Positions 36,278-56,410 of a stretch of 64,000 bases of DNA are shown here, one piece after another. The DNA comes from Hyphomicrobium sp. NDB2Meth4. GTDB taxonomy: Bacteria; Pseudomonadota; Alphaproteobacteria; Rhizobiales; Hyphomicrobiaceae. The stretch lies in the NCBI RefSeq assembly GCF_900117445.1, contig NZ_FPEJ01000001.1, positions 734,501 through 798,500 on the forward strand, given 5' to 3'. Position 1 is the first letter of the stretch, and each line of letters starts with the position of its first letter. The notes below the pieces were generated by a model, which saw only the letters and a program-made list of their open reading frames with translations, did not search any database and was not told where the DNA came from. The translations under genes and the position numbers were made by a program.

Positions 36278-36684
36278 CTCTGAAGAATCCTGTTGGCCCG
36301 GCGGAGCCGAGACCATGACGTTAATGAGCGCTGGACGCTGTTGACCAAGGAGCATACTTAGATGCACCCGGCCTGCCCACCCATTTAATGGGCGCTTTGC
36401 GGCGTCCCAAGAGGTGCGAGCAGAGCCCTGGTCCGCATCGAGTGGCTGACCAACAGCGGCCGGTTGTCGCAAAACTTCAAACTGGAATAGATTTAGCCTG
36501 ATGTCCGTCAGTCTAGAAGCCCCATTTTACAGGGCTTTGCGGCCCAAACGTGCACGTTGCCGCTCCGATTATCACGCGCTGGCGGAAACTTAGGCGCGAC
36601 ACTTTTCGATCTCCCGATTACGCTTTTGCGATGCAGCGGAGAACACCAAGTCTCCTCGAACCGTCGATATCGCGAGGCGGTGAA
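36278..36684. other. Divergent intergenic region between map and nifA
   Basis: About 400 bases holding both promoters. A hairpin AAGCCC/GGGCTT lies at 36517-36537. I looked for a sigma-54 -24/-12 element, a TGT-N10-ACA NifA site and a FixK-type TTGAT-N4-ATCAA box ahead of nifA and found no convincing one, so control of nifA is not visible. Confidence 0.45.
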
Positions 36685-38421
36685 ATGATTTCTGTAAAGC
36701 AGCCGACGACTGTAATGCCGTCAGCGCCCGCCCCCAAACAGCTGGGCGAGGTCGCTCTGATCGGCATCTACGAAGTCTCGAAGATTCTCGCCAAACCGGC
36801 GCGGCTCGAGACGACACTTTCCAACGTCCTCAACCTGCTGTCCTCGTTCCTCGACATGCAGCACGGCACCATCGTCCTCCTTGACGATGACGACGTGCCC
36901 GGCATGGTCGTCGGCACCGTATGGACGGAAGAGGTCGCCTACGAGGGTCACCAGCACTTGCCCCGCAAGGTGCTGGACCAGATCATTGCGACGTCCATGC
37001 CGTTGGTGCTCGAGAACGCCGGCGAACACCCCCTCTTCCACGGGGCATCGCGGGAAACCACCTCGACCGCCGATGGGCAGCCCGTTTCCTTCATCGGAGT
37101 TCCCATCAAGATTGAGGACCGCGTCGTCGGCACCCTGTCGATCGTGCGTGTGTGGGACAAAGGCAGCGAATTCCGCTCCGATCACGACGTTCGCTTCCTG
37201 TCGATGATCGCCAACCTTATTGGCCAGACCATCCATCTGCATCGCGTCATCTCCCGCGACCGCGAGCGCCTGATGGATCAGAGCCGTCGGCTCGAAAAAG
37301 AGCTGACGAGCGTCAAGCCGGGCAAGGAGCGGTCGCGTGTCGCCGGCATCATCGGCGACAGCGCCGCCATTCGCGCGCTGCTGAGCAAGATCGAGATCGT
37401 CGCCAAATCGAATGCGACGGTACTGCTCCGCGGCGAGTCCGGAACGGGCAAAGAGCTCTGCGCCCGCGCCATTCACGAGTTGTCGACCCGCTCCAAGGGA
37501 GCTTTCGTTAAGGTCAACTGCGCGGCCCTACCTGAATCGGTGCTGGAATCGGAACTGTTCGGCCACGAGAAGGGTGCATTCACTGGCGCCATCGCCTCGC
37601 GCAAAGGCCGCTTCGAGCTTGCCGATGGCGGTACCATCTTCCTCGACGAGATCGGTGAGATTTCGCCTGCGTTCCAGGCCAAGCTCCTGCGCGTCCTGCA
37701 GGAGGGCGAGTTCGATCGCATCGGCAGCACCAAGACCCAGAAAGTCGACGTGCGCGTCGTCGCTGCCACCAACCGCGATCTCGAGGAGGCTGTCAGCCAA
37801 GGCACGTTCCGCGCCGACCTCTACTATCGCATCAGCGTCGTGCCGCTGCGCATTCCTTCGCTGCGCGAGCGCAAAGGTGACATCCCTCTTCTTGCCGAGA
37901 GCTTCCTCACCCGCTTCAACAAAGAGAACAATCGCAACCTGAAGCTCGCCTCCAGTGCCATCGACGTGCTGAAGGCCTGCTACTTCCCAGGCAACGTGCG
38001 CGAACTCGAAAACTGCGTGTTCCGCACCGCGACGCTGGCCTCCGGCGCTTCAATTGTCGATGACGACTTCGCTTGCCGCCACGATCTCTGCCTCTCTTCG
38101 CTGCTGTGGAAGGGCGGCGGCGGAAATTCGCTTCCGGAGCGCCCCAAGCCGCAAATCCCACTTCCCGTTATGCCCACATCGGCGGAGCCGGCGCGGCCGG
38201 CGATGCCGGTGCCAGCTGAAGCCCGCTCGCCCATTTCAGAGTCTGATATGGGTGGAGCGCTCGATGGCGATGGCGCTCCCTCGACCGAACGCGATCGCCT
38301 CGTAGAGGCCATGGAAAAGGCGGGCTGGGTCCAGGCCAAGGCCGCGCGCATTCTCGGTTTGACGCCGCGCCAGATTGGCTACGCGCTCAAAAAGCACGGC
38401 ATCGAGATCCGCCACTTCTGA
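36685..38421 (+). CDS. nifA: Nitrogen fixation transcription activator NifA
   Basis: Sigma-54-dependent activator of nif genes. Order: GAF domain (about 45-190), AAA+ domain with Walker A GESGTGKE (250-257), GAFTGA (297-302) and Walker B GGTIFLDEI, an interdomain linker, and a C-terminal Fis-type helix-turn-helix (VQAKAARILGLTPRQIGYALKKHG). The cysteines Cys432-X11-Cys444-X19-Cys464-X4-Cys469 match the motif of oxygen-sensitive rhizobial NifA. The ATG at 36685 is preceded by GAGGCGG; an upstream ATG at 36631 is possible. Matching target sites lie at 40499, 46523 and 55221. Confidence 0.97.
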   Translation: MISVKQPTTVMPSAPAPKQLGEVALIGIYEVSKILAKPARLETTLSNVLNLLSSFLDMQHGTIVLLDDDDVPGMVVGTVWTEEVAYEGHQHLPRKVLDQIIATSMPLVLENAGEHPLFHGASRETTSTADGQPVSFIGVPIKIEDRVVGTLSIVRVWDKGSEFRSDHDVRFLSMIANLIGQTIHLHRVISRDRERLMDQSRRLEKELTSVKPGKERSRVAGIIGDSAAIRALLSKIEIVAKSNATVLLRGESGTGKELCARAIHELSTRSKGAFVKVNCAALPESVLESELFGHEKGAFTGAIASRKGRFELADGGTIFLDEIGEISPAFQAKLLRVLQEGEFDRIGSTKTQKVDVRVVAATNRDLEEAVSQGTFRADLYYRISVVPLRIPSLRERKGDIPLLAESFLTRFNKENNRNLKLASSAIDVLKACYFPGNVRELENCVFRTATLASGASIVDDDFACRHDLCLSSLLWKGGGGNSLPERPKPQIPLPVMPTSAEPARPAMPVPAEARSPISESDMGGALDGDGAPSTERDRLVEAMEKAGWVQAKAARILGLTPRQIGYALKKHGIEIRHF

Positions 38422-40498: not shown

Positions 40499-40514
40499 TG
40501 TCGGACATACGACA
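40499..40514. promoter_or_regulatory. NifA upstream activator site 1 (LRV/suf)
   Basis: TGT-CGGACATACG-ACA, an exact TGT-N10-ACA site, 87 bases before the -24 element at 40601. Confidence 0.75.
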
Positions 40515-46522: not shown

Positions 46523-46538
46523 TGTCGGGTTCCCAACA
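46523..46538. promoter_or_regulatory. NifA upstream activator site 1 (nifB)
   Basis: TGT-CGGGTTCCCA-ACA, an exact TGT-N10-ACA match, 38 bases upstream of a second site. Confidence 0.75.
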
Positions 46539-46560
46539 GCTCCGACATTTCTCGCGCCGC

Positions 46561-46576
46561 TGTCGGCATCGCGACA
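46561..46576. promoter_or_regulatory. NifA upstream activator site 2 (nifB)
   Basis: TGT-CGGCATCGCG-ACA, an exact TGT-N10-ACA match, about 60 bases before the -24 element. Confidence 0.78.
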
Positions 46577-46634
46577 TCGCAAGCGACAATTGGAAAGCGG
46601 CGTTATTTCAATGTGTTGGAGAGCGTGCGACGCG

Positions 46635-46650
46635 TGGCACGCAAGTTGCC
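46635..46650 (+). promoter_or_regulatory. Sigma-54 promoter of nifB
   Basis: TGGCAC-GCAAG-TTGCC matches the -24/-12 consensus with GG and GC in correct spacing; 98 bases before the nifB start. Confidence 0.88.
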
Positions 46651-46748: not shown

Positions 46749-48311
46749 ATGGACGGACTAGTTGAACGCAACGTTGAGGCAGCGAAGGAAGATCCGCGCT
46801 CACTCGACGAGGTGATGCAGGAAATTGCAGAGCACAAAGGCTGCGGCACCAAGGGCGGCAGCGGCAAGGCGAGCTGCGGCACTGGCGCAGGTCAGGGCGA
46901 TATGCCCGCTGAGATCTGGGAGAAGGTGAAGAACCATCCCTGCTACAGCGAGGAAGCGCACCACCACTATGCACGCATGCACGTCGCCGTTGCGCCGGCC
47001 TGCAACATCCAGTGCAACTACTGCAATCGCAAATACGATTGCGCCAACGAATCGCGCCCCGGCGTGGTCAGCGAGAAGCTGACGCCTGAGCAGGCGGCCA
47101 AGAAGGTGCTCGCGGTCGCATCGACCATCCCGCAGATGACGGTGCTCGGCATCGCAGGCCCTGGCGACCCGCTCGCCAACCCTGCCAAGACCTTTAAGAC
47201 CTTCGAGCTGATTTCGCAGACAGCCCCCGACATCAAGCTGTGCCTATCGACCAACGGTCTGGCCCTGCCTGAGCACGTCGACACGATCCAGAAGTTCAAC
47301 GTCGATCACGTCACCATCACCATCAACATGGTCGACCCGGAAATCGGCGCCAAGATCTATCCCTGGATCTTCTACAATCACCGCCGCATCGAGGGCGTCG
47401 AAGCAGCGCGCATTCTCTCCGAGCACCAGCTGCGCGGCCTCGAGATGCTCACCGAGCGCGGCATCCTCTGCAAGATCAACTCGGTGATGATCCCAGGCAT
47501 CAACGACAAGCACCTTGTCGAGGTGAACAAGGCCGTCAAATCGCGCGGCGCCTTCCTGCACAACATCATGCCGCTCATCTCCGCGCCCGAGCACGGCACC
47601 GTCTTCGGCCTCACCGGCCAGCGTGGTCCGACGGCGCAGGAGCTGAAGGCGCTGCAGGACGACTGCGAAGGCGAGATGAACATGATGCGTCACTGCCGTC
47701 AGTGCCGCGCCGACGCCGTTGGTCTGCTTGGTGAGGATCGCTCTTCGGAGTTCACCACCGACAAGATCATGCAGATGGACGTCAAATACGACCTCGACAC
47801 GCGCAAGGCCTATCAGGAGAAGGTCGAAGGCGAACGTCAGGCCAAGGTTGAAGCCAAGCAGGCAGAGCTTGCCACGATGGCCGGCGAGATGAGCGACATC
47901 AAGATTCTCGTCGCTGTCGCCACCAAGGGCAGCGGCCGCATCAACGAGCACTTCGGTCACGCCAAAGAGTTCCAGATTTACGAGCTCTCCACCTCCGGTG
48001 CGAAGTTCGTCGGTCATCGCCGCGTCGATCTCTACTGCCAGGGCGGCTTTGGCGACGAAGCGAGCCTAGAGACGGTCATCCGCGCCATCAACGACTGCGC
48101 GGCAGTGTTCGTCGCCAAGATCGGCGGTTGCCCCAAGAACGATCTGCTCAAGGCCGGCATCGAGCCCGTCGATCAGTACGCGATGGAGTTCATCGAGCAG
48201 TCGGCAATCTCTTACTTCAAGGACTACCTGCAGCGCGTGAAGAGCGGAGAGATCGAGCACGTCACGCGTGGCGATGCCGACATCCGCCAGGGCGCGCTCA
48301 TCAACGCTTAA
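46749..48311 (+). CDS. nifB: Nitrogenase cofactor biosynthesis protein NifB
   Basis: 520 residues. The radical SAM domain carries CNIQCNYC (Cys85-X3-Cys89-X2-Cys92) with further Cys ligands for the K clusters, and makes NifB-co (the 8Fe-9S-C precursor) inserting carbide. The C-terminal part (about 385-505) is a NifX-like domain ([27 protein letters not shown]). Full-length two-domain form. It is the first gene of the promoter at 46635. Confidence 0.97.
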
Positions 48312-48334
48312 ACTCGACTAACTGGAGCTGATAA

Positions 48335-48559
48335 ATGGCCTACAAGATCGTCGCATCGCAGTGCACATCGTGCTCGGCTTGCGAGGCGGAATGCCCGAAC
48401 GTCGCCATCTCCGAGAAGAACGGCACGTTCGTTATCAACCCGAAGAAGTGCACCGAGTGCATCGGTCACTTCGACATCCCGCAGTGCGTCGCGGTGTGCC
48501 CGGTCGATGATACGTGCATCATCGACACCTCCTATCCGCGCTACCAGGCGCCGGCTTGA
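48335..48559 (+). CDS. fdxN: 2[4Fe-4S] ferredoxin FdxN
   Basis: 74 residues, two cluster motifs: [12 protein letters not shown] and [18 protein letters not shown]; the longer spacing in the second motif is typical of FdxN. It is the electron donor to NifB or nitrogenase in several diazotrophs. It follows nifB by 23 bases. Confidence 0.95.
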
Positions 48560-48572
48560 GGAGGACGCTTCC

Positions 48573-48926
48573 ATGGACATGAGCGTAACACCCGCTGCAC
48601 AGAAGTTCATCCAACGCATGTTGCGCTTCGACGGCGGTCCGGGAAGCGGGTTCCGTCTCGAGGTTACGGCGGGAGGCTGCTCCGGACTGGCGGCACAGTT
48701 CAGCGTCGAGACGCAACCGCGCTCGGGCGATGCTGTCGTGGACGTGAGCGGCGTCAAGTTCTTCCTGCCGGCCGAAAGCCGACTGCTGCTCGACGGAGTC
48801 ACGGTCGACTTCGTCGACTCGCCGCTGCAGACCGGGTTTGTGTTCCACGATCCCAAGGCCAAGTCGTGCGGCTGCTCCTCGGAGAAGGCGCCGGCAGTTG
48901 ACGCTTCGTCGCTCAAGCTGAGTTAG
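48573..48926 (+). CDS. IscA/HesB-type Fe-S carrier, nif-linked
   Basis: 117 residues of the A-type carrier family: MSVTPAAQKFIQRML, then GGCSGLAAQF and C-terminal SCGCSS supply the three conserved Cys. A-type proteins accept or pass clusters; next to nifB and suf genes it probably serves nitrogenase maturation. GAGGAGG lies about ten bases before the ATG. Confidence 0.9.
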   Translation: MDMSVTPAAQKFIQRMLRFDGGPGSGFRLEVTAGGCSGLAAQFSVETQPRSGDAVVDVSGVKFFLPAESRLLLDGVTVDFVDSPLQTGFVFHDPKAKSCGCSSEKAPAVDASSLKLS

Positions 48927-48934
48927 GGGCGACG

Positions 48935-49474
48935 ATGACGGCAGCGGTCAGGAGCATGGAGGCACCTCTGGCGGACGACGCGCTCATCGCGAGCGTATTG
49001 CTCGGTCAAGGTCTCCCGGCCGCTGCCGAACACCATCTGCGCATGGCGAGCTTGTCCTATCACAACGCAGACCTTGCAGAGCAGCACCTGCGTGACGCCG
49101 AGGCGCTCGCCCCGGGCCATGCGGCCGTGCTGATCGGTCTCTACCGGTTTTACTTCTACAAAGGCCGTCTCGATGAGGCGCTCGACGTTGCGCGCGTATG
49201 CCTCGCCAAGGCAGCCCGCGAGAATGGGCTCAGCAGCAATTGGCGCGACGTCGCGCGTGACGACGCGGATTTCAGCGGTTGGGACGCAGTGCTGCCGCGC
49301 TTCTATCTCTTCACGCTCAAGGGCTATGCGTACCTCAATATGCGCCTCGGCAACGAGGGCGAAGCGCGCCTTGCGGTGGAGAAGCTTCTCGATCTCGATC
49401 CCACAAACAAACTGGGCGGCCGCGTGCTTCTCGAAGTGCTCGAGCGCAAGGGCCGCGATGATGACGACGACTGA
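48935..49474 (+). CDS. TPR-like nif-associated protein (paralogue of 53819-54298)
   Basis: 179 residues, mostly helical with tetratricopeptide-like pairs: AEHHLRMASLSYHNADLAEQHLRDAEALAPG, VLIGLYRFYFYKGRLDEALDVARVCL and FYLFTLKGYAYLNMRLGNEGEARLAVEKLLDLDP. It ends in an Asp-rich tail. A related protein lies on the other side of the island (53819). Probably a scaffold or chaperone; role unknown. Confidence 0.75.
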   Translation: MTAAVRSMEAPLADDALIASVLLGQGLPAAAEHHLRMASLSYHNADLAEQHLRDAEALAPGHAAVLIGLYRFYFYKGRLDEALDVARVCLAKAARENGLSSNWRDVARDDADFSGWDAVLPRFYLFTLKGYAYLNMRLGNEGEARLAVEKLLDLDPTNKLGGRVLLEVLERKGRDDDDD

Positions 49475-49512
49475 CACCAACGCAAAACGCTTCTGATCCA
49501 CGAGGTGCGACG

Positions 49513-49833
49513 ATGACGAACATCAGCCGCGATAGCGACACGGTCGAGCTCAACGACCCGCCTTTGTACGACTACGGGGCCAAGGTGCGCTCACGCCGCA
49601 CGATCCGAAATGACGGGACGTTCCCCGGCAAGGACATCGGCGAGATTCTCGTCAAGAAGGGCGAGGAGGGCTACGTGGTCAGCATCGGCACGTTCTTGCA
49701 GCAGTTCTACATCTACGGCGTCGAGTTCGTGAGCACGGGCTATCGCGTCGGCATGAAGCGCAAGGAGCTCGAGCCCGCCAATCCCGAGCCCGCGCCCGCG
49801 CCGGCAGCATCCGCGCCGGAGTCCGAACTATGA
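49513..49833 (+). CDS. nifZ: NifZ, copy 1
   Basis: 106 residues with the SH3-like NifZ fold: YDYGAKVRSRRTIRNDGTFPGKDIGEILVKKGEEGYVVSIGTFLQQFYIYGVEFVSTGYRVGMKRKEL. NifZ takes part in P-cluster formation on NifK. It carries a Pro/Ala-rich tail and overlaps the next gene by ATGA. Confidence 0.92.
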   Translation: MTNISRDSDTVELNDPPLYDYGAKVRSRRTIRNDGTFPGKDIGEILVKKGEEGYVVSIGTFLQQFYIYGVEFVSTGYRVGMKRKELEPANPEPAPAPAASAPESEL

Positions 49834-50168
49834 GCGAGCAAACGAGCACTGCCGAAACGGCGGCACCAGCAGAGGCTGTCATCCCGCGCGAGCCAGTCGC
49901 CCCCAAGTTCGAATGGGGCCAGCGCGTGCGCGCCACCGTCGATCTCTTCAATGACGGCTCTTTCCCCGACGTTCCCGAGGACGAGCTTCTCGCCAAGGTC
50001 GGCGACGTCGGTGAGATCGTGCAGGTAGGCCGCCACGTCGAGGCGAACGTCGCAATCTACTTGGTCGAGTTCAACGAGCGCCGCATCGTCGGCTGTCTCG
50101 AAAACGAGATCGAGCTCTCCAGCGCACCACCGACGATCGATGTCAAACAAAAGGACGCCAGTGAATGA
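49830..50168 (+). CDS. nifZ: NifZ, copy 2
   Basis: 112 residues; a second, divergent NifZ domain (KFEWGQRVRATVDLFNDGSFPD, AKVGDVGEIVQVGRHVEANVAIYLVEFNERRIVGCLENEIEL). The N-terminal 25 residues are Thr/Ala/Pro-rich. ATGA overlaps on both sides indicate coupled translation of nifZ-nifZ-nifT. The pair may have split roles in maturation of the two P-clusters. Confidence 0.88.
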   Translation: MSEQTSTAETAAPAEAVIPREPVAPKFEWGQRVRATVDLFNDGSFPDVPEDELLAKVGDVGEIVQVGRHVEANVAIYLVEFNERRIVGCLENEIELSSAPPTIDVKQKDASE

Positions 50169-50377
50169 AGGTGATGATCCGCAGGAGCCACGAAGGCCAG
50201 CTTTCCGCCTACGTGCCCAAGAAGGATTTGGAAGAGCCGATCGTCGAGGTTGAGAAGCCCGATATGTGGGGCGGTTTCATCATGCTCGCAAATGGATGGA
50301 AGCTGCAGCTTCCCGAGATGGCACCCGAAACCATGCTCCCGATCACGGTCGAGGCGCGCAAGCTGAGTGGGGAATAG
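50165..50377 (+). CDS. nifT: NifT/FixU protein
   Basis: 70 residues: MKVMIRRSHEGQLSAYVPKKDLEEPIVEVEKPDMWGGFIMLANGWKLQLPEM, the standard NifT pattern with the WGG motif. Role unclear and dispensable in many diazotrophs. Overlaps nifZ copy 2 by ATGA. Confidence 0.93.
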   Translation: MKVMIRRSHEGQLSAYVPKKDLEEPIVEVEKPDMWGGFIMLANGWKLQLPEMAPETMLPITVEARKLSGE

Positions 50378-50379
50378 TC

Positions 50380-50649
50380 ATGTCGCTTGAACAGGACGAA
50401 ATTGCCGACATTGAACAGGTTCTGACGACGCGTCCTCCCGAGACGGTATTCGCCGAGCTTCGTGAGCGCTTCCCCGACCTGTCCCTCACGCGTTGCGATG
50501 TTTCCGACATCGACACCGAAACGCCGTTCCGCGAGTACGGCCGCTTCAGCCTCTACCTGGTCGACAGCGCCGATCATTGCTGGCGCCTCACCGATGACCC
50601 CAGCCGCGCGACGGGGCTTGTTGTAGCGGAGCGCAAGACGCTGTCATGA
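50380..50649 (+). CDS. DUF6129-like nif-associated protein
   Basis: 89 residues from ATG 50380: helix EIADIEQVLTTRPPETVFAELRERFPDLSL, then beta-rich TRCDVSDIDTETPFREYGRFSLYLVDSADHCWRLTDDPSRATGLVVAE. I recall a small family (DUF6129) with this pattern in nif clusters. Function unknown. It ends with an ATGA overlap with the DegT-like gene. Confidence 0.75.
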   Translation: MSLEQDEIADIEQVLTTRPPETVFAELRERFPDLSLTRCDVSDIDTETPFREYGRFSLYLVDSADHCWRLTDDPSRATGLVVAERKTLS

Positions 50650-51797
50650 AGCCCACGTGGATCCCACTTTCTGATCCCGACATCACGCACGACGAGCTCG
50701 ATGCGGTGAGCGAGGTGCTTCAGTCACCGCGCATCTCCGCCGGGCCGGTCGTCCAGCGCTTCGAGGCGGCATTCGCCCACTACCTCGGACGCAGGCATGC
50801 TGTCGCGGTATCCAGTGGGACCATGGGCATTGTGCTCGCCCTGCAGGCGGCCGGAATAACAGCTAACGACGAGGTGGTGGCCTCGCCCTATGGCTGGCGC
50901 GAAAGCGCCCACGCCATCGCCGCGCTAGGGGCCCGCCCGCTGTTCGCCGACATCGACTATTGGGCCGGCACCATCGTGCCCGAGAAGGCGGAAGCCGTCA
51001 TCGGCGCGCGCACAAAGGCCATCATCGGCGCCAACGTGAACGGCCATCCGGCGCCATGGAACAAACTGCGCGAGGTGGCAAACCGCCATCGCACCGTGTT
51101 GATCGAGGACTCCACCGAGGCCATCGGGTCGATCTACCAGGGCAAGAAGGTAGGCACCTTCGGCGACATGTCCGTGTTCGATTTCTCACAGCCAGGCCCC
51201 CTCGTATGCGGCGAAGGCGGCATGGTTGTTACCGATGACGACGACCTCGCCAGCAAACTGCGGCAGCTGCGCAGCCGCCGCCCCGAGGACCGTTCATCCG
51301 TGGTCTTTGGCATGACGGCACCCTTTCAGTGCGCCATGAGCGACATGTCGGCCGCGCTTGGTCTGGTGCAGCTCGAGAGGCTCGAGGTCATCCTAGAAAA
51401 GCGCAAGCGCGCCGAGCGCTGGTACTACGATTACGTTCAGTCGTTCGAGGGCATCAAGGATCCCTACATCGGCCCCGACGTCGACGTCGTGCATTGGTTC
51501 CTTTACGTCGTGCATCTCGGTACTCGCTTCTCGCGCTCCAGCCGCGACGCCATCGTCGAGGACCTGCACACCGAGAGTATCGAGGCGGCCGCATACGCCA
51601 CTCCGCTGCACGTGCAGCGCCGCTACATCGAGTACGGCTACCGGCGCGGAAGTTTGTTCGTCACCGAGAAGGTGGCTGATCGCGCTGTCGCCCTCCCATT
51701 CCACACTCACCTGACTGAAGAGCAGATAGCTTTCATCATCGGAACGATGAAGGACGCATCGATCAACGTGGGTGCTGGTACCGCCATCTACCTGTAG
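50646..51797 (+). CDS. DegT/DnrJ/EryC1/StrS-family protein lacking the PLP lysine
   Basis: 383 residues of the sugar aminotransferase (AHBA) fold: SDPDITHDELDAVSEVLQSP, the RRHAVAVSSGTMGIVLAL phosphate loop, LIEDSTEAIGSIYQGKKVGTFGDMS with the PLP-ring Asp, and CGEGGMVVTDDD. The Schiff-base lysine, normally five residues before GEGG's first Gly, is Gly184 here (FDFSQPGPLVCGEGG), so transamination is not expected. Relatives lie in alphaproteobacterial nif clusters. A binding, structural or sensory role is plausible. Confidence 0.85.
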   Translation: MKPTWIPLSDPDITHDELDAVSEVLQSPRISAGPVVQRFEAAFAHYLGRRHAVAVSSGTMGIVLALQAAGITANDEVVASPYGWRESAHAIAALGARPLFADIDYWAGTIVPEKAEAVIGARTKAIIGANVNGHPAPWNKLREVANRHRTVLIEDSTEAIGSIYQGKKVGTFGDMSVFDFSQPGPLVCGEGGMVVTDDDDLASKLRQLRSRRPEDRSSVVFGMTAPFQCAMSDMSAALGLVQLERLEVILEKRKRAERWYYDYVQSFEGIKDPYIGPDVDVVHWFLYVVHLGTRFSRSSRDAIVEDLHTESIEAAAYATPLHVQRRYIEYGYRRGSLFVTEKVADRAVALPFHTHLTEEQIAFIIGTMKDASINVGAGTAIYL

Positions 51798-51844
51798 GCG
51801 GACCCGAACAACACAGCCATCGGATTATCCAGGAGACCAAAATA

Positions 51845-52150
51845 ATGCCCACCATGACGATCATGCCATCCGGCAAAACAGTGGATGTCGTCGAAGGCGC
51901 ACGCGTCCTCGATGCCCTGCTCGCCGCCGAGGAAGGCATCGCGCACAAGTGTGATGGGAACGCCAAGTGCGGCGCTTGCCATATCTTCGTCCACGACGGC
52001 CGCCGCAGCCTTTCAAAGGTTCAGCGCGCTGAGAACGAGAAGCTCGACACCATCGTCGGCGTCGGCTCGAAATCGCGGCTCGCATGCCAGGCGCGCTTTG
52101 GCACAGACAACGTGACGGTGGAGCTTCTGGGCTTCTCGTCGGGATTCTAA
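51845..52150 (+). CDS. Plant-type [2Fe-2S] ferredoxin
   Basis: 101 residues. Ligands CDGNAKCGACHIF...RLACQA (C-X5-C-X2-C, then a distant Cys) are of the adrenodoxin/plant type. N-terminal TIMPSGKTVDVVEGARVLDALLAAEEG is typical. Likely a nif-regulated electron carrier; the nif cluster encodes at least three different ferredoxins in this window. Confidence 0.92.
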   Translation: MPTMTIMPSGKTVDVVEGARVLDALLAAEEGIAHKCDGNAKCGACHIFVHDGRRSLSKVQRAENEKLDTIVGVGSKSRLACQARFGTDNVTVELLGFSSGF

Positions 52151-52173
52151 CAGCCAACAGAAGGAGTACGGAA

Positions 52174-52392
52174 ATGGGAGAGGCAATGGTGCTTGTGCAT
52201 GTCCGTTTTGCGCCGGACGGCAGCGTCACCGAGATCGGCGAGCGCCCGGCGGGCGCGACGCCACAGAAGTGGTTCGACACCCTGAGCGAGGAGCTGAAGG
52301 GGCAGTACCAGCCACTGTCCGGCGGCCGCGGCGTTTTCCGTGAAACGCGCACGCGCATTGAAGCGCTCAAGAGCGGAGCAACGATTCAATGA
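52174..52392 (+). CDS. Small nif-associated hypothetical protein (72 aa)
   Basis: 72 residues, MVLVHVRFAPDGSVTEIGERPAG followed by PQKWFDTLSEELKGQYQPLSGGRGVFRETRTRIEAL. A good AAGGAG ribosome site supports ATG 52174. The stop overlaps the SIR2-like start by ATGA, so the two proteins are probably made together and may be partners. I recognise no named domain. Confidence 0.75.
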   Translation: MGEAMVLVHVRFAPDGSVTEIGERPAGATPQKWFDTLSEELKGQYQPLSGGRGVFRETRTRIEALKSGATIQ

Positions 52393-53309
52393 GCCAAGGC
52401 AGCATCGAGGCAATTCGCTCGGCGCTCGGAGCCGGCACGCTCATCCCGTATCTGGGACCAAGCGTACTGGCGCTCACCGGTGACGATTGCCCGGTGCCGA
52501 CCTCCGCAGATCAGTTGGTCGCACGCCTCACCGCGAAGGCGAGCGTGCCGCACAAGATCCGCAATAACCTATCTGCGGCGGCGCAGTTCATCGAGAACTT
52601 CAAGCATCGCAAGACTGTCGCCAAGGCAATGGCTGAAGCCTTCGACCCGAAGGTTCCGCCGACGGTGTTGCACCGGTTCTTCGCCGCCCAGCCCAAGCTG
52701 CCGCTGCTCGTGCACGCTTGGTATGACGACCTCCCTCAGCAGGCGCTTGCGGGACGGCCGTCCTGGGGCATCGTCCAGGGCGTCAGCCAATCGGAGCACT
52801 TCGGCAACTGGGTGCACTACCTGCGTCCGGACGGAACGCGCGTGGACGCCGGGGCCGCAGCGACCAGCGCCGCCGAAGGCATGCCGCCCGCCGTGGCGCC
52901 GGTCGAAGCAGCAAACTGGGCAACGTTGCTCTATCAGCCGCTCGGCTCCGTGCGTCCCGCCGCAAACTTCCTGGTGTCCGACACCGACTATGTCGAGGTG
53001 CTCACAGAGATCGACATTCAAACGCCGATCCCCGAGCCGGTGCAGAACATCCGGCGCGGTCGTCACTTCCTGTTCCTTGGCTGCCGTTTCGCCAACCAGC
53101 TCGAGCGCACGTTCGCGCGCCAGATCATGAAGCGCTCTTCGGACAAGCATTGGGCTGTCCTGCCCGATGAGCCGACCCGCAACGAGGCACGCTTCTTGGT
53201 CGAGCAGAACATCGAGCGCATCGCCATCCCGCTCGACAAGTTCATCGGCGATCTGGTGCAGCCGCGCGAGGCAACGGCCAACGGCGCCTGGATGGCGGCG
53301 CAACACTGA
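52389..53309 (+). CDS. SIR2-like nif-associated protein with degenerate active site
   Basis: 306 residues of the prokaryotic SIR2-like fold: N-terminal AGTLIPYLGPSVLAL (usual LIPFLGAGVS), LPLLVHAWYDDLP (usual TTNYD), LYQPLGSVRPAANFLVSDTDY (usual K-HGS) and GRHFLFLGCRFANQL (usual FLGYS). The catalytic His of the HG motif is Leu185 and the TN pair is HA, so NAD hydrolysis or deacylation is doubtful. It may bind NAD or a nucleotide as a sensor. Coupled to the 72-residue protein upstream. Confidence 0.8.
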   Translation: MSQGSIEAIRSALGAGTLIPYLGPSVLALTGDDCPVPTSADQLVARLTAKASVPHKIRNNLSAAAQFIENFKHRKTVAKAMAEAFDPKVPPTVLHRFFAAQPKLPLLVHAWYDDLPQQALAGRPSWGIVQGVSQSEHFGNWVHYLRPDGTRVDAGAAATSAAEGMPPAVAPVEAANWATLLYQPLGSVRPAANFLVSDTDYVEVLTEIDIQTPIPEPVQNIRRGRHFLFLGCRFANQLERTFARQIMKRSSDKHWAVLPDEPTRNEARFLVEQNIERIAIPLDKFIGDLVQPREATANGAWMAAQH

Positions 53310-53339
53310 TCGCACTTTACGATTGACGGAGATAAGACG

Positions 53340-53711
53340 ATGAAAGTGGCCTCAGCGTTTGAGGGAAAGAACCCCGACGAGATCAAGGCAGAGCTCGCCG
53401 GCGGCAAGTTGGTGTTCTACTCGGTAGCGCGTCCGGTGAGCGCGGATGCTCCCGTGGAGCGCAGTGAAGTCCTTGCGACATTCACCTTCGCAACACCCGC
53501 GTTCGCCGCCAGCGCCGCACCTCAGTTCGAGAGCAATCCCGTCAAGGCAAGTGCTGTCGGCACACCGGGCTTTGCGCGCGCATTTAAGGCGGATGGTACG
53601 ACAGTCGCCGATTTTTCTGTCGGCCCTGGCAAGGCCGAGATCAAGCTCAGCGAAATCTCGACGGTTGCCGACTTCCCAATTGAAGTGAAGTCTATCGCCC
53701 TGCCGGCCTAA
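53340..53711 (+). CDS. Nif-associated hypothetical protein (123 aa)
   Basis: 123 residues, beta-rich: KLVFYSVARPVSADAPVERSEVLATFTFATPAF, then SNPVKASAVGTPGFARAFKADGTTVADFSVGPG. No signal peptide. A GGAGATAAG ribosome site precedes the ATG. No family recognised. Last gene before the terminator, so it belongs to the nifB transcript or a sub-operon from the 72-residue gene. Confidence 0.7.
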   Translation: MKVASAFEGKNPDEIKAELAGGKLVFYSVARPVSADAPVERSEVLATFTFATPAFAASAAPQFESNPVKASAVGTPGFARAFKADGTTVADFSVGPGKAEIKLSEISTVADFPIEVKSIALPA

Positions 53712-53743
53712 GCGGCGAGCCGTCTCTGCAACGAACTCTCAAA

Positions 53744-53775
53744 GGCCAGCCTCCGCGAGGCTGGCCTCCTTTTTT
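53744..53775. terminator. Strong rho-independent terminator of the nifB operon
   Basis: Perfect 10-bp stem GGCCAGCCTC/GAGGCTGGCC with a CGC loop, followed by TCCTTTTTT. A-rich sequence on the other side is short, so it serves mainly the plus strand; it separates two convergent nif units. Confidence 0.92.
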
Positions 53776-53818
53776 GCGCAGGTGGCTCCGGGCCGTGCAT
53801 GTAACGACGGAGAGAGCA

Positions 53819-54298
53819 CTACACCAGCGCATCGGCCAGACTGGCGACCACTGGCCATCCAATTGATCCGGTTGGATCGAGCCGTTCAAGATGCCGGAGC
53901 GCTTCGCGCGCTTCGGCGGGCTCCTCGCGACGCAGCCGTATGAATGCCAGCGCCTTTAGCGTGTAGAGCGCAAAGCGGCCGGGTCCATCGATCGGCTCGC
54001 CAGGCGGTGTCCACGCACGAAAATCGTCCGCCCACCCCGCTTGCCGCGCCGCCTCCCGCAAGCCCGCCTCCGCCGCTTCCAACGCCAGGTCGAGGCTGCC
54101 TTGATACGTGTGAATCTTGTAGAGGCAGAAATAGAGCGGCAGATGCTCTGGCCCTTCCTCCAGCGCCTCGCGGAACAGGCGGTCGGCTTCCGCCCGGTCT
54201 GTGCGGTAAGCGGCGACCCCACGCTGCACCAAGTTGTCGATTGATTGGGGCAGCGCGCCGAAGTCGATCAGCTTCTCGAGCGCGAGCACATTGTTCAT
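53819..54298 (-). CDS. TPR-like nif-associated protein (paralogue of 48935-49474)
   Basis: 159 residues: QRGVAAYRTDRAEADRLFREALEEGPEHLPLYFCLYKIHTYQGSLDLALEAAEAGL, FALYTLKALAFIRLRREEPAEAREALRHLERLDP. The order and spacing of these helices parallel the protein at 48935. Start at 54298 overlaps the rhodanese stop by ATGA. Third gene of the divergent pseudo-receiver operon. Confidence 0.75.
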   Translation of the reverse strand: MNNVLALEKLIDFGALPQSIDNLVQRGVAAYRTDRAEADRLFREALEEGPEHLPLYFCLYKIHTYQGSLDLALEAAEAGLREAARQAGWADDFRAWTPPGEPIDGPGRFALYTLKALAFIRLRREEPAEAREALRHLERLDPTGSIGWPVVASLADALV

Positions 54299-54657
54299 GA
54301 CTGAGTGCCGGGAATCTCGACTGGCGCTCCCTCGACAGTACGCCAAAGTTCGAATCCGCCATCGAGGCTGAACACATCCTCGAATCCGAAATCGACGAAC
54401 GTCTGCGCGTAGGTCTGGCTGGCATTGCCATGGTAACAGTAGATCAGGACGGGATGCTGCTTCGGATGGCTCGTCAGCAGCTCGTACACTTCCTTGTCGG
54501 AGACCCAACGCGCCGCGGGGAGATGCCCCTCCGCGTAGCTTCTTTGATCCCGCACGTCGAGGATCAGAAGCTCACACTCGCGGCCTTCTATGAGGTTGCG
54601 CGCTTCGCCCATGCCGATGCGCTTGAATGCAGCCCGAACCCGCATGGCGCTTTTCAC
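54295..54657 (-). CDS. Single-domain rhodanese-like sulfurtransferase
   Basis: 120 residues. The active-site loop CYHGNASQ (Cys74) is like that of GlpE, and LLILDVRDQRSYAEGHLPAARW is the usual N-terminal rhodanese block. It may carry persulfide sulfur for nitrogenase cluster assembly, or respond to it. Starts with GTG overlapping the previous stop (GTGA); an ATG four codons later is possible. Confidence 0.85.
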   Translation of the reverse strand: MKSAMRVRAAFKRIGMGEARNLIEGRECELLILDVRDQRSYAEGHLPAARWVSDKEVYELLTSHPKQHPVLIYCYHGNASQTYAQTFVDFGFEDVFSLDGGFELWRTVEGAPVEIPGTQS

Positions 54658-55097
54658 AGCCTCTGTATGGGTTGCAACAAATCGAGCGACAGCATCGGCA
54701 GCTTACGACGCCCAAGCAGCACGTCCACCTTGTAGCGCACCGATTCGATCGTCAGTGGCTTTGCAAGAATGTCGTGCGCCCCGGATTCGAGGCACGACAG
54801 CGCCAGAGGATCGTTTGCGGCGTCCGCCACGAGCATGACCTTGGTGTCGGGGAGACGGGTCGCGATTTCCGCCAGTACGGCTGTACCTTTCTCCTGCACG
54901 ACATTCGTTCCGAGCAGTAGTAGATCCGGCTTCCAGTCGACAGCCTTCTGAAAGGCATGGTCGAGACTGTTGAGCTCGTGCGTCTCGTTCTCGTCGTGCA
55001 GCATGAATTGCAGCGCTGAGCGGATGATCTCGTCGTTATCGACGACGAAGATGCGCTTGTTCTCGACCGCCCGCGAAGATTCGACCCCAATCTGCAT
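54654..55097 (-). CDS. Pseudo-receiver (CheY-like) domain protein
   Basis: 147 residues of the receiver fold. The acidic pocket (VVDNDE, Asp20/Asp22/Glu23) and Lys113 (ILAKPL) remain, but the phosphoacceptor position in DLLLLGTNV is Gly63. Phosphorylation is therefore not expected; signalling by binding is likely. No output domain. GAGGTC precedes the ATG. First gene of a coupled three-gene unit facing away from nifH. Confidence 0.85.
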   Translation of the reverse strand: MQIGVESSRAVENKRIFVVDNDEIIRSALQFMLHDENETHELNSLDHAFQKAVDWKPDLLLLGTNVVQEKGTAVLAEIATRLPDTKVMLVADAANDPLALSCLESGAHDILAKPLTIESVRYKVDVLLGRRKLPMLSLDLLQPIQRL

Positions 55098-55131
55098 GTT
55101 GACCTCGCCATCTATTCCTCATTGAGGCGAA

Positions 55132-55147
55132 GCAAAGCTCATACCAG
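55132..55147 (-). promoter_or_regulatory. Possible sigma-54 promoter of the pseudo-receiver operon
   Basis: On the minus strand TGGTAT-GAGCT-TTGCT keeps the key GG and GC with correct spacing, 35 bases before the gene start. The NifA sites at 55221 and 55272 could serve both directions. Confidence 0.5.
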
Positions 55148-55220
55148 CGCCCTCCCGGCCAGAGCCCCGCGCAAATCCCGCACAAACCGGCGATTCTGCA
55201 TTCCCGTCCCTGATCTGCGT

Positions 55221-55236
55221 TGTGTTCTTTCATACA
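55221..55236. promoter_or_regulatory. NifA upstream activator site 1 (nifH)
   Basis: TGT-GTTCTTTCAT-ACA, an exact TGT-N10-ACA match, 51 bases before site 2. Confidence 0.72.
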
Positions 55237-55271
55237 GGCGCCACCCCCGATGTCGCCCAGCCCGGCGCGAA

Positions 55272-55287
55272 TGTCGGGTTTAGAACA
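55272..55287. promoter_or_regulatory. NifA upstream activator site 2 (nifH)
   Basis: TGT-CGGGTTTAGA-ACA, an exact TGT-N10-ACA match, 71 bases before the nifH -24 element. Confidence 0.8.
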
Positions 55288-55357
55288 TCTCGCAACAACA
55301 CCGCCGCGCGAGCCGTAAGCGGCTGTAATTACGCGCAATTCAGCCGCCTGAAAAGGC

Positions 55358-55373
55358 TGGCACAGTCGTTGCA
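55358..55373 (+). promoter_or_regulatory. Sigma-54 promoter of nifHDK
   Basis: TGGCAC-AGTCG-TTGCA, a consensus -24/-12 element, about 145 bases before the nifH start, leaving a long untranslated leader. Confidence 0.92.

Positions 55374-55483: not shown

Positions 55484-56410
<927 letters not shown>

Follow-up and report, generated by a model that had tools for sequence, protein, structure and literature searches.

SIR2-like genes have been named in the nitrogen fixation (nif) clusters of Zymomonas (PMC8594446), Rhodovulum (PMC9412634) and P. stutzeri (PMC11332353); these and the other papers cited here are represented by the accessible parts of their text. In R. capsulatus, the "SIR2 family protein" Rcc03262 was quantified in the wild type and not found in a nifA double mutant (PMC6925177), and in M. 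loti the sirtuin-like gene msi351 is a member of the NifA regulon (PMC3538637). The literature already records the SIR2-like gene as part of nif operons. Here we describe a 64-kb stretch of Hyphomicrobium sp. NDB2Meth4 DNA (contig NZ_FPEJ01000001.1, positions 734,501 to 798,500; the window), a nif cluster in a genome of 4.08 Mb that encodes a DegT-like protein, a SIR2-like protein and a receiver-only protein. A sequence-only reading had proposed that these three proteins keep familiar folds without their catalytic residues and form a binding-based sensing or scaffold system not described as such. We show that the DegT-like and SIR2-like proteins retain their predicted folds despite the loss of catalytic residues, that purifying selection acts on them and that in the sampled genomes they are found almost exclusively alongside nif genes.

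The msi351 locus resembles the window in that its sirtuin-like gene follows nifB, fdxN, nifZ and nifT/fixU under a NifA-type promoter, whereas the accessible M. loti listing has no DegT-like gene (PMC3538637); the two were likened by gene order, with the msi351 sequence unaligned. This precedent makes the claim of novelty wrong for the SIR2-like gene. That claim stood for the DegT-like gene, of which we found no description among the matches listed from the openly licensed literature, most subscription literature lying outside the search. Queries combining pseudoenzyme or receiver with nif returned nothing relevant among the matches listed, and neither SIR2 nor DegT was named, in the terms searched, in two Azoarcus papers or in one paper on NifA of P. 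phymatum.

The DegT-like protein belongs to the DegT family by profile (PF01041, 1.3e-89) and by predicted fold; its AlphaFold model, with a predicted local distance difference test score (pLDDT) of 91.4, best matches GDP-perosamine synthase (3dr4, TM 0.88/0.92). It shares 30–34% identity and the ring-nitrogen aspartate with the sugar aminotransferases GDP-perosamine synthase and ArnB, but differs from them at the sites described below. A phmmer alignment placed the lysine of GDP-perosamine synthase opposite Gly184 of the window protein. We then compared 73 distinct nif-linked sequences (nif DegTs; 72 relatives and the window protein) with 14 ordinary DegTs from 14 genomes. The Schiff-base lysine that binds pyridoxal 5'-phosphate (PLP) was present in none of the 73 nif DegTs and in all 14 controls, which bears out the predicted loss; the column held Ser 35, Gly 33, Leu 2, Cys 1, Ala 1 and Gln 1. 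Misalignment of the lysine was rejected, as no K occurs anywhere in columns 181–188 of the 73 rows. In Spr1654, the cofactor phosphate is held by Ser194 (with Thr59) and the ring nitrogen by Asp170, while PLP is attached to Lys199 (PMC5936713); the spacing of Ser194, Asp170 and Lys199 equals that of D179, D155 and G184 in the window. The phosphate-binding serine, five residues N-terminal of the lysine column, was Asp in 73/73 nif DegTs and Ser in 14/14 controls, and column 130 was Asn in 73/73 versus His in 13/14, whereas the ring-nitrogen Asp155 was kept in all 73. The nif DegTs also carry a C-terminal tail (K369, D370, S372, N374, G376, A377, G378 and I381, each in at least 70/73) that is not common to ordinary DegTs, 12 or 13 of the 14 controls having a gap from position 376 onward. 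Its segment 371–383 is invariant yet modeled at a pLDDT of only 51–68. In a tree of 42 nif rows, the window included, and the 14 controls, the nif DegTs lay on one side of a branch with an SH-aLRT (approximate likelihood ratio test) support of 100. As judged from these alignments, the nif DegTs have lost their catalytic residues family-wide and yet are conserved. A nif DegT-like stretch without a listed gene was also seen on a Bradyrhizobium plasmid with an incomplete gene table (L085, 9001–10123); it aligns in two pieces and is perhaps broken.

ColD and E1 are 3-dehydratases of the DegT family that function without the lysine, using a histidine and pyridoxamine 5'-phosphate (PMP). Both are among the solved relatives of the DegT-like protein by sequence, the gene for a 2Fe-2S ferredoxin (Fer2) adjoins the DegT-like gene, and Asp155 is universally kept, all of which would suit a lysine-free, PMP-dependent dehydratase of this type that receives electrons from the ferredoxin. 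However, the histidine expected at the lysine position was found in 0/73 nif DegTs, which mostly have Ser or Gly there, and PMP should be disfavored because the phosphate cup holds Asp in every sequence. We consider it improbable that the DegT-like protein is still such an enzyme.

The SIR2-like protein is a member of SIR2_2 by profile (PF13289, 4.3e-18) and by fold (model pLDDT 86.6), with chains of ThsA and DSR2 as the best fold matches (best E 7e-11, to ThsA). The window protein reads HAWYD at the TTNYD site, with Trp111 for Asn, and QPLGS at the KLHGS site, with Leu185 for His; the sequence-only reading had noted Leu185 and the missing TN motif. As controls for 101 distinct nif sequences we aligned 26 ordinary SIR2_2 proteins encoded in same-class genomes (30 control loci less four of nif type). 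The paired motif (TxNxD...HG) occurred in 0/101 nif SIR2-like proteins and in 23/26 controls. The Asn column held Trp in 96 and Asn in five; the His column held Leu in 55, Ile in 22, His in eight and others in 16. The two residues never coincide: the five members with Asn, which are distant, have no His, and Asn is missing from all eight with His. In a tree of the 101 rows, all eight fell in one 11-row group with three His-less members. The initial loci were the best 80 of 244, so that His-keeping members were under-sampled in that set; the aligned rhizobial relatives, from R. tropici and M. huakuii only, keep the His (L082 and L083). The nearest relative by identity among the best 80 of 244 was from Hyphomicrobium sp. 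SB8 (79%). The stretch 202–215 is rich in invariant residues, and model confidence is lowest in block 201–210 (pLDDT 46). A PDB sequence search returned a single match at E 1.1. Five SIR2-like fragments (L104–L108) lie beside longer copies in genomes G043, G200 and G253 and are probably decayed second copies; four of the five have in-frame stops.

ThsA and DSR2 are defense proteins, and their place as top fold matches, together with the His kept in 8/101 sequences, would fit retention of some other activity by the SIR2-like protein or its domestication from a defense NADase. The nif proteins differ from them in being much shorter and nif-linked, with 12–17% identity (50 rows shown), and in having lost the paired motif; the Asn is gone wherever the His is kept. 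No PADLOC defense model matched the SIR2-like protein at 0.001, and a defense-gene identity was rejected on this ground. We regard either form of this explanation as highly unlikely.

In the receiver, the loss of the phosphoacceptor aspartate was likewise borne out: the window protein has Gly63 at the phospho-Asp site and keeps Asp20 and Lys113. Among 25 receivers, the site residue was Gly in 20, Ala in two and Asn, Ser and Asp in one each, and the lone Asp-bearing protein (L076) has Ser-Ala-Cys where the window has Asp-Asn-Asp. Absence of the catalytic residues throughout the orthologues therefore held for the DegT-like protein and not entirely for the SIR2-like protein and the receiver. The conserved Lys113 was found in 20/25 receivers and the N-terminal MQIG in 25/25; the N-terminus and alpha1 are conserved, the LQFML...DE.ETHE region is nearly invariant, and the loop past the site is variable. 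The invariant MQIG, D35, E38 and H40 are distant in sequence from the phosphorylation site. In all 25 fetched loci holding both genes, the receiver is divergent from nifH and at most 1.2 kb away. A described counterpart may be nrf3 of the acid mine drainage fosmid DX-1A-14, a nif-linked "two component response regulator" gene of 426 bp that has a sigmaN site and comes after a rhodanese and a globin in the list of genes (PMC3912193); the window receiver, which also has a rhodanese nearby, was likened to it by description only.

All three frames are open and intact, as had been claimed. Compared with Hyphomicrobium SB8, the ratio of nonsynonymous to synonymous substitution rates (dN/dS) was 0.151 for the DegT-like gene, 0.140 for the SIR2-like gene and 0.095 for the receiver, with nifB (0.092) and nifH (0.089) as references. 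The three genes are under purifying selection, and the possibility that they are decaying pseudogenes was rejected on these values. Other loci encode a class V enzyme resembling NifS between nifZ and nifT, a position at which the window has no such gene; in the rows aligned after removal of short matches and of those scoring 250 bits or less, its lysine and cysteine were each kept in 59/59. The four cysteines of the 2Fe-2S ferredoxin were kept in 51 to 54 of 54 rows. Because these neighbors keep their key residues, the catalytic loss is specific and not a general decay.

We scanned 398 genomes of the phylum, of which 41 had nifD above the cut-off (nifD+) and 357 did not, and applied Fisher tests. 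The SIR2-like gene was found in 17 genomes, 15/41 nifD+ versus 2/357 others (p 1.3e-14), and was absent from 26/41 nifD+ genomes; of the two outside the nifD+ set, G253 has a broken nifD piece and a sub-cut-off nifD-family match, and G068 only such a match. The DegT-like gene occurred in six genomes, all nifD+ and SIR2+ (6/41 versus 0/357, p 8.5e-7), with bit scores of 477–682 followed by a gap to 257 or less. The receiver, counted at a strict limit of 1e-25, was found in four genomes, all of them with the DegT-like gene. These genes are thus not scattered with respect to nif. In loci having both degT and sir2, the two lay on the same strand and at most 3 kb apart in 71/72, and 81/85 SIR2 loci also matched another nif gene; L015, L027, L068 and L080, which did not, are short contigs or lie at a contig end. 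SIR2-like genes are widespread, extending to rhizobial plasmids and Acidobacteriota (75 plasmid records matched, 55 of them from Rhizobium); the DegT-like genes form a subset of this distribution and the receiver a smaller one. The DegT-like and SIR2-like proteins are not obligate partners, because 13/85 SIR2 loci, some cut by contig ends, have no DegT match. Loci L011 and L024 have the receiver and no DegT-like gene, as seen in the fetched loci and not in whole genomes. Locus L009, from Methylocella silvestris TVC, holds relatives of all three genes.

A co-occurrence profile was made of 44 nif-bearing genomes, 17 with and 27 without the SIR2-like gene. NifW was present in 16/17 SIR2+ versus 3/27 SIR2- genomes (p 3.6e-8; per family 11/12 versus 2/10, p 0.0015), and NifZ, with a weaker link, in 16/17 versus 9/27 (per family p 0.056). 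NifT, in 16/17 and 25/27, did not track the SIR2-like gene. A NifT-SIR2 partnership had been suggested by adjacency, nifT lying upstream within 6 kb of sir2 in 77/80 loci having both; the profile does not support it, because NifT occurs in 41/44 nif-bearing genomes with or without SIR2.

The features of the region are collected in Table 1. The plus-strand run extends from nifB to the gene for the 123-amino acid protein (46749–53711), with intergenic gaps of at most 47 bases, and from this close spacing the genes from nifB to the SIR2-like gene would form one operon. The minus-strand run (55097 down to 53819) comprises the receiver, the rhodanese and the second tetratricopeptide repeat (TPR) protein, and is divergent from nifH at 55517.

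Table 1. Coordinates of features of the nifB-nifH region in the window (aa, amino acids; ORF, open reading frame)
Feature	Coordinates	Strand	Basis or remark
Two NifA-type elements (46523, 46561) and sigma54-type site (46635-46650, one mismatch)	46523..46650	+	upstream of nifB
nifB, first gene of run	46749..48311	+	annotated nifB in related loci
fdxN-type ferredoxin	48335..48559	+	relatives annotated 4Fe-4S binding protein
IscA/HesB-like iron-sulfur accessory protein	48507..48926	+	limits of ORF; actual start probably internal
TPR protein 1	48935..49474	+	Pfam TPR_19 1.6e-6
NifZ copy 1	49513..49833	+	Pfam NifZ 8.5e-33
NifZ copy 2	49830..50168	+	PF04319 genome search recovers both copies
NifT/FixU	50165..50377	+	PF06988 4.9e-30
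DUF6129-like small protein	50380..50649	+	Pfam 1.1e-4, just below cut-off
DegT-like pseudo-transaminase (Gly184, Asp179, Asp155 kept, C-terminal tail 369-381)	50646..51797	+	DegT_DnrJ_EryC1 1.3e-89
2Fe-2S ferredoxin (Fer2)	51845..52150	+	Pfam; conserved cysteines 36, 42, 45, 81
Small unknown protein, 72 aa	52174..52392	+	Pfam: no family
SIR2_2-like protein (Trp111 for Asn, Leu185 for His)	52389..53309	+	SIR2_2 4.3e-18
123-aa protein, last of nifB run	53340..53711	+	ORF
Terminator-like hairpin, 11 pairs and T tail	53743..53767	+	longest stem in region
TPR protein 2	53819..54301	-	paralogue of TPR protein 1
GlpE-like rhodanese, cysteine kept in CYHGNAS	54295..54657	-	GlpE model 5e-26, 91.1 bits vs model cut-off 102
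Receiver-only protein without phosphoacceptor Asp (Gly63)	54654..55097	-	Response_reg 9.6e-14
NifA/sigma54-type region: 55131-55146 (-, one mismatch) facing receiver; 55358-55373 (+, exact) facing nifH; elements 55221, 55272	55131..55373
nifH	55517..56410	+	ORF; locus comparison

The two TPR proteins, which the sequence-only reading had called paralogous, are 34% identical over 118 residues; the first was matched in 53/81 loci, its own locus being counted through the cross-match to the second. We take the CYHGNAS of the rhodanese to be its active-site motif. In the DUF6129-like protein, D43, C67 and A77 are identical in 68/68 rows, window included, and H66 is found in 66. The 123-aa protein, matched among the 81 loci in its own locus, L002 and L004, hits the phage virion-protein profile phrog_3758 at 4.6e-17; tblastn against phage records at 1e-3 gave zero matches. 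Terminator-like sites in the region numbered seven, versus 6.7 expected from shuffles.

The assignment of these genes to NifA-type units was supported by NifA/sigma54-type sites before nifB and between the receiver and nifH, scored with consensus patterns. NifA-type elements numbered 14 in the window versus 5.4 expected, a count reached in 0/100 shuffles. For sigma54-type sites (seven versus 3.7 expected), only the positions are informative, because 8/100 shuffles reached that count. An LRV_FeS protein gene (40620) is preceded by a further sigma54-type site (40601, one mismatch) and by NifA-type elements at 40499 and 40530; with these sites upstream, this gene and those downstream of it to 46451, which we take to be a suf-like run, may be under NifA control. 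The window also encodes a NifA-like protein with GAF, sigma54-activator and Fis-type helix-turn-helix domains (36550–38421).

From sequence and context we infer that the DegT-like and SIR2-like proteins would be non-catalytic binding factors for nitrogenase metallocluster assembly or protection in diazotrophs with NifW and NifZ, the receiver being a separate adaptor; we put the probability of this reading at roughly 0.45. Through its remodeled cofactor pocket and invariant tail, the DegT-like protein would engage a ligand or partner of the NifB/NifZ/cysteine desulfurase/ferredoxin pathway, and the SIR2-like protein might use its rebuilt nicotinamide adenine dinucleotide pocket and invariant 202–215 loop likewise. 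The receiver would act independently of phosphorylation. In the models, the invariant low-confidence segments of the DegT-like and SIR2-like proteins suggest binding. Of the dead-enzyme binding system first proposed, the family-wide, conserved and nif-linked catalytic loss stands; a single obligate three-part system was rejected, since the distributions are nested and separable, the receiver belongs to a separate divergent run, and L011 and L024 have it without the DegT-like gene.

Several points weigh against the binding-factor reading. Low pLDDT can also stem from a shallow alignment, and for the DegT-like protein the putative binding role is drawn from sequence and model only. Shared lineage may account for part of the NifW correlation, and two of the exceptions to it (G222 and G385) are weak NifW matches. 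As noted, DegT is missing from some SIR2 loci. In addition, insertion of lacZ into M. loti msi351 (msi351::lacZ) left the mutant fully effective in nodule symbiosis (PMC3538637). This mutant and the nested distributions would also suit unrelated passengers, optional nif accessory genes that each have a small effect and share the catalytic loss by coincidence. We find that explanation doubtful in view of the near-constant degT-sir2 linkage, the low dN/dS, the association with nif and the presence of an intact PLP enzyme in this cluster at other loci.

For the sensing role we found no direct evidence. Receiver and TPR folds occur widely in signaling, and the pockets are conserved but rebuilt, as might be expected if the three proteins were ligand or redox sensors regulating nif expression or nitrogenase activity. 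However, Pfam finds no output domain, the DegT-like and SIR2-like genes sit within the nifB run, and the receiver and DegT-like genes are separable in the fetched loci. Metallocluster assembly fits better than sensing because the neighbors are nifB, fdxN, an iscA-like gene, two nifZ genes and a ferredoxin gene, with an intact cysteine desulfurase elsewhere; we judge a sensor function unlikely. A more specific form of the binding-factor reading, in which the dead transaminase and dead sirtuin form with the 2Fe-2S ferredoxin and NifZ/NifT a scaffold guarding or delivering metallocluster precursors in NifW-bearing, probably micro-oxic, diazotrophs, is offered as speculation with the odds well against it; in that case a metal or cluster, and not PLP, could occupy the rebuilt DegT pocket (N130, H134, D155, E158, D179 and C188).

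Moving nitrogen fixation into new hosts needs every assembly factor to be known, and records label genes beside nifB in many Proteobacteria as DegT-family aminotransferase and SIR2 family protein. The evidence against those enzyme labels redirects the study of these genes and supplies defined residues and a tail as targets.

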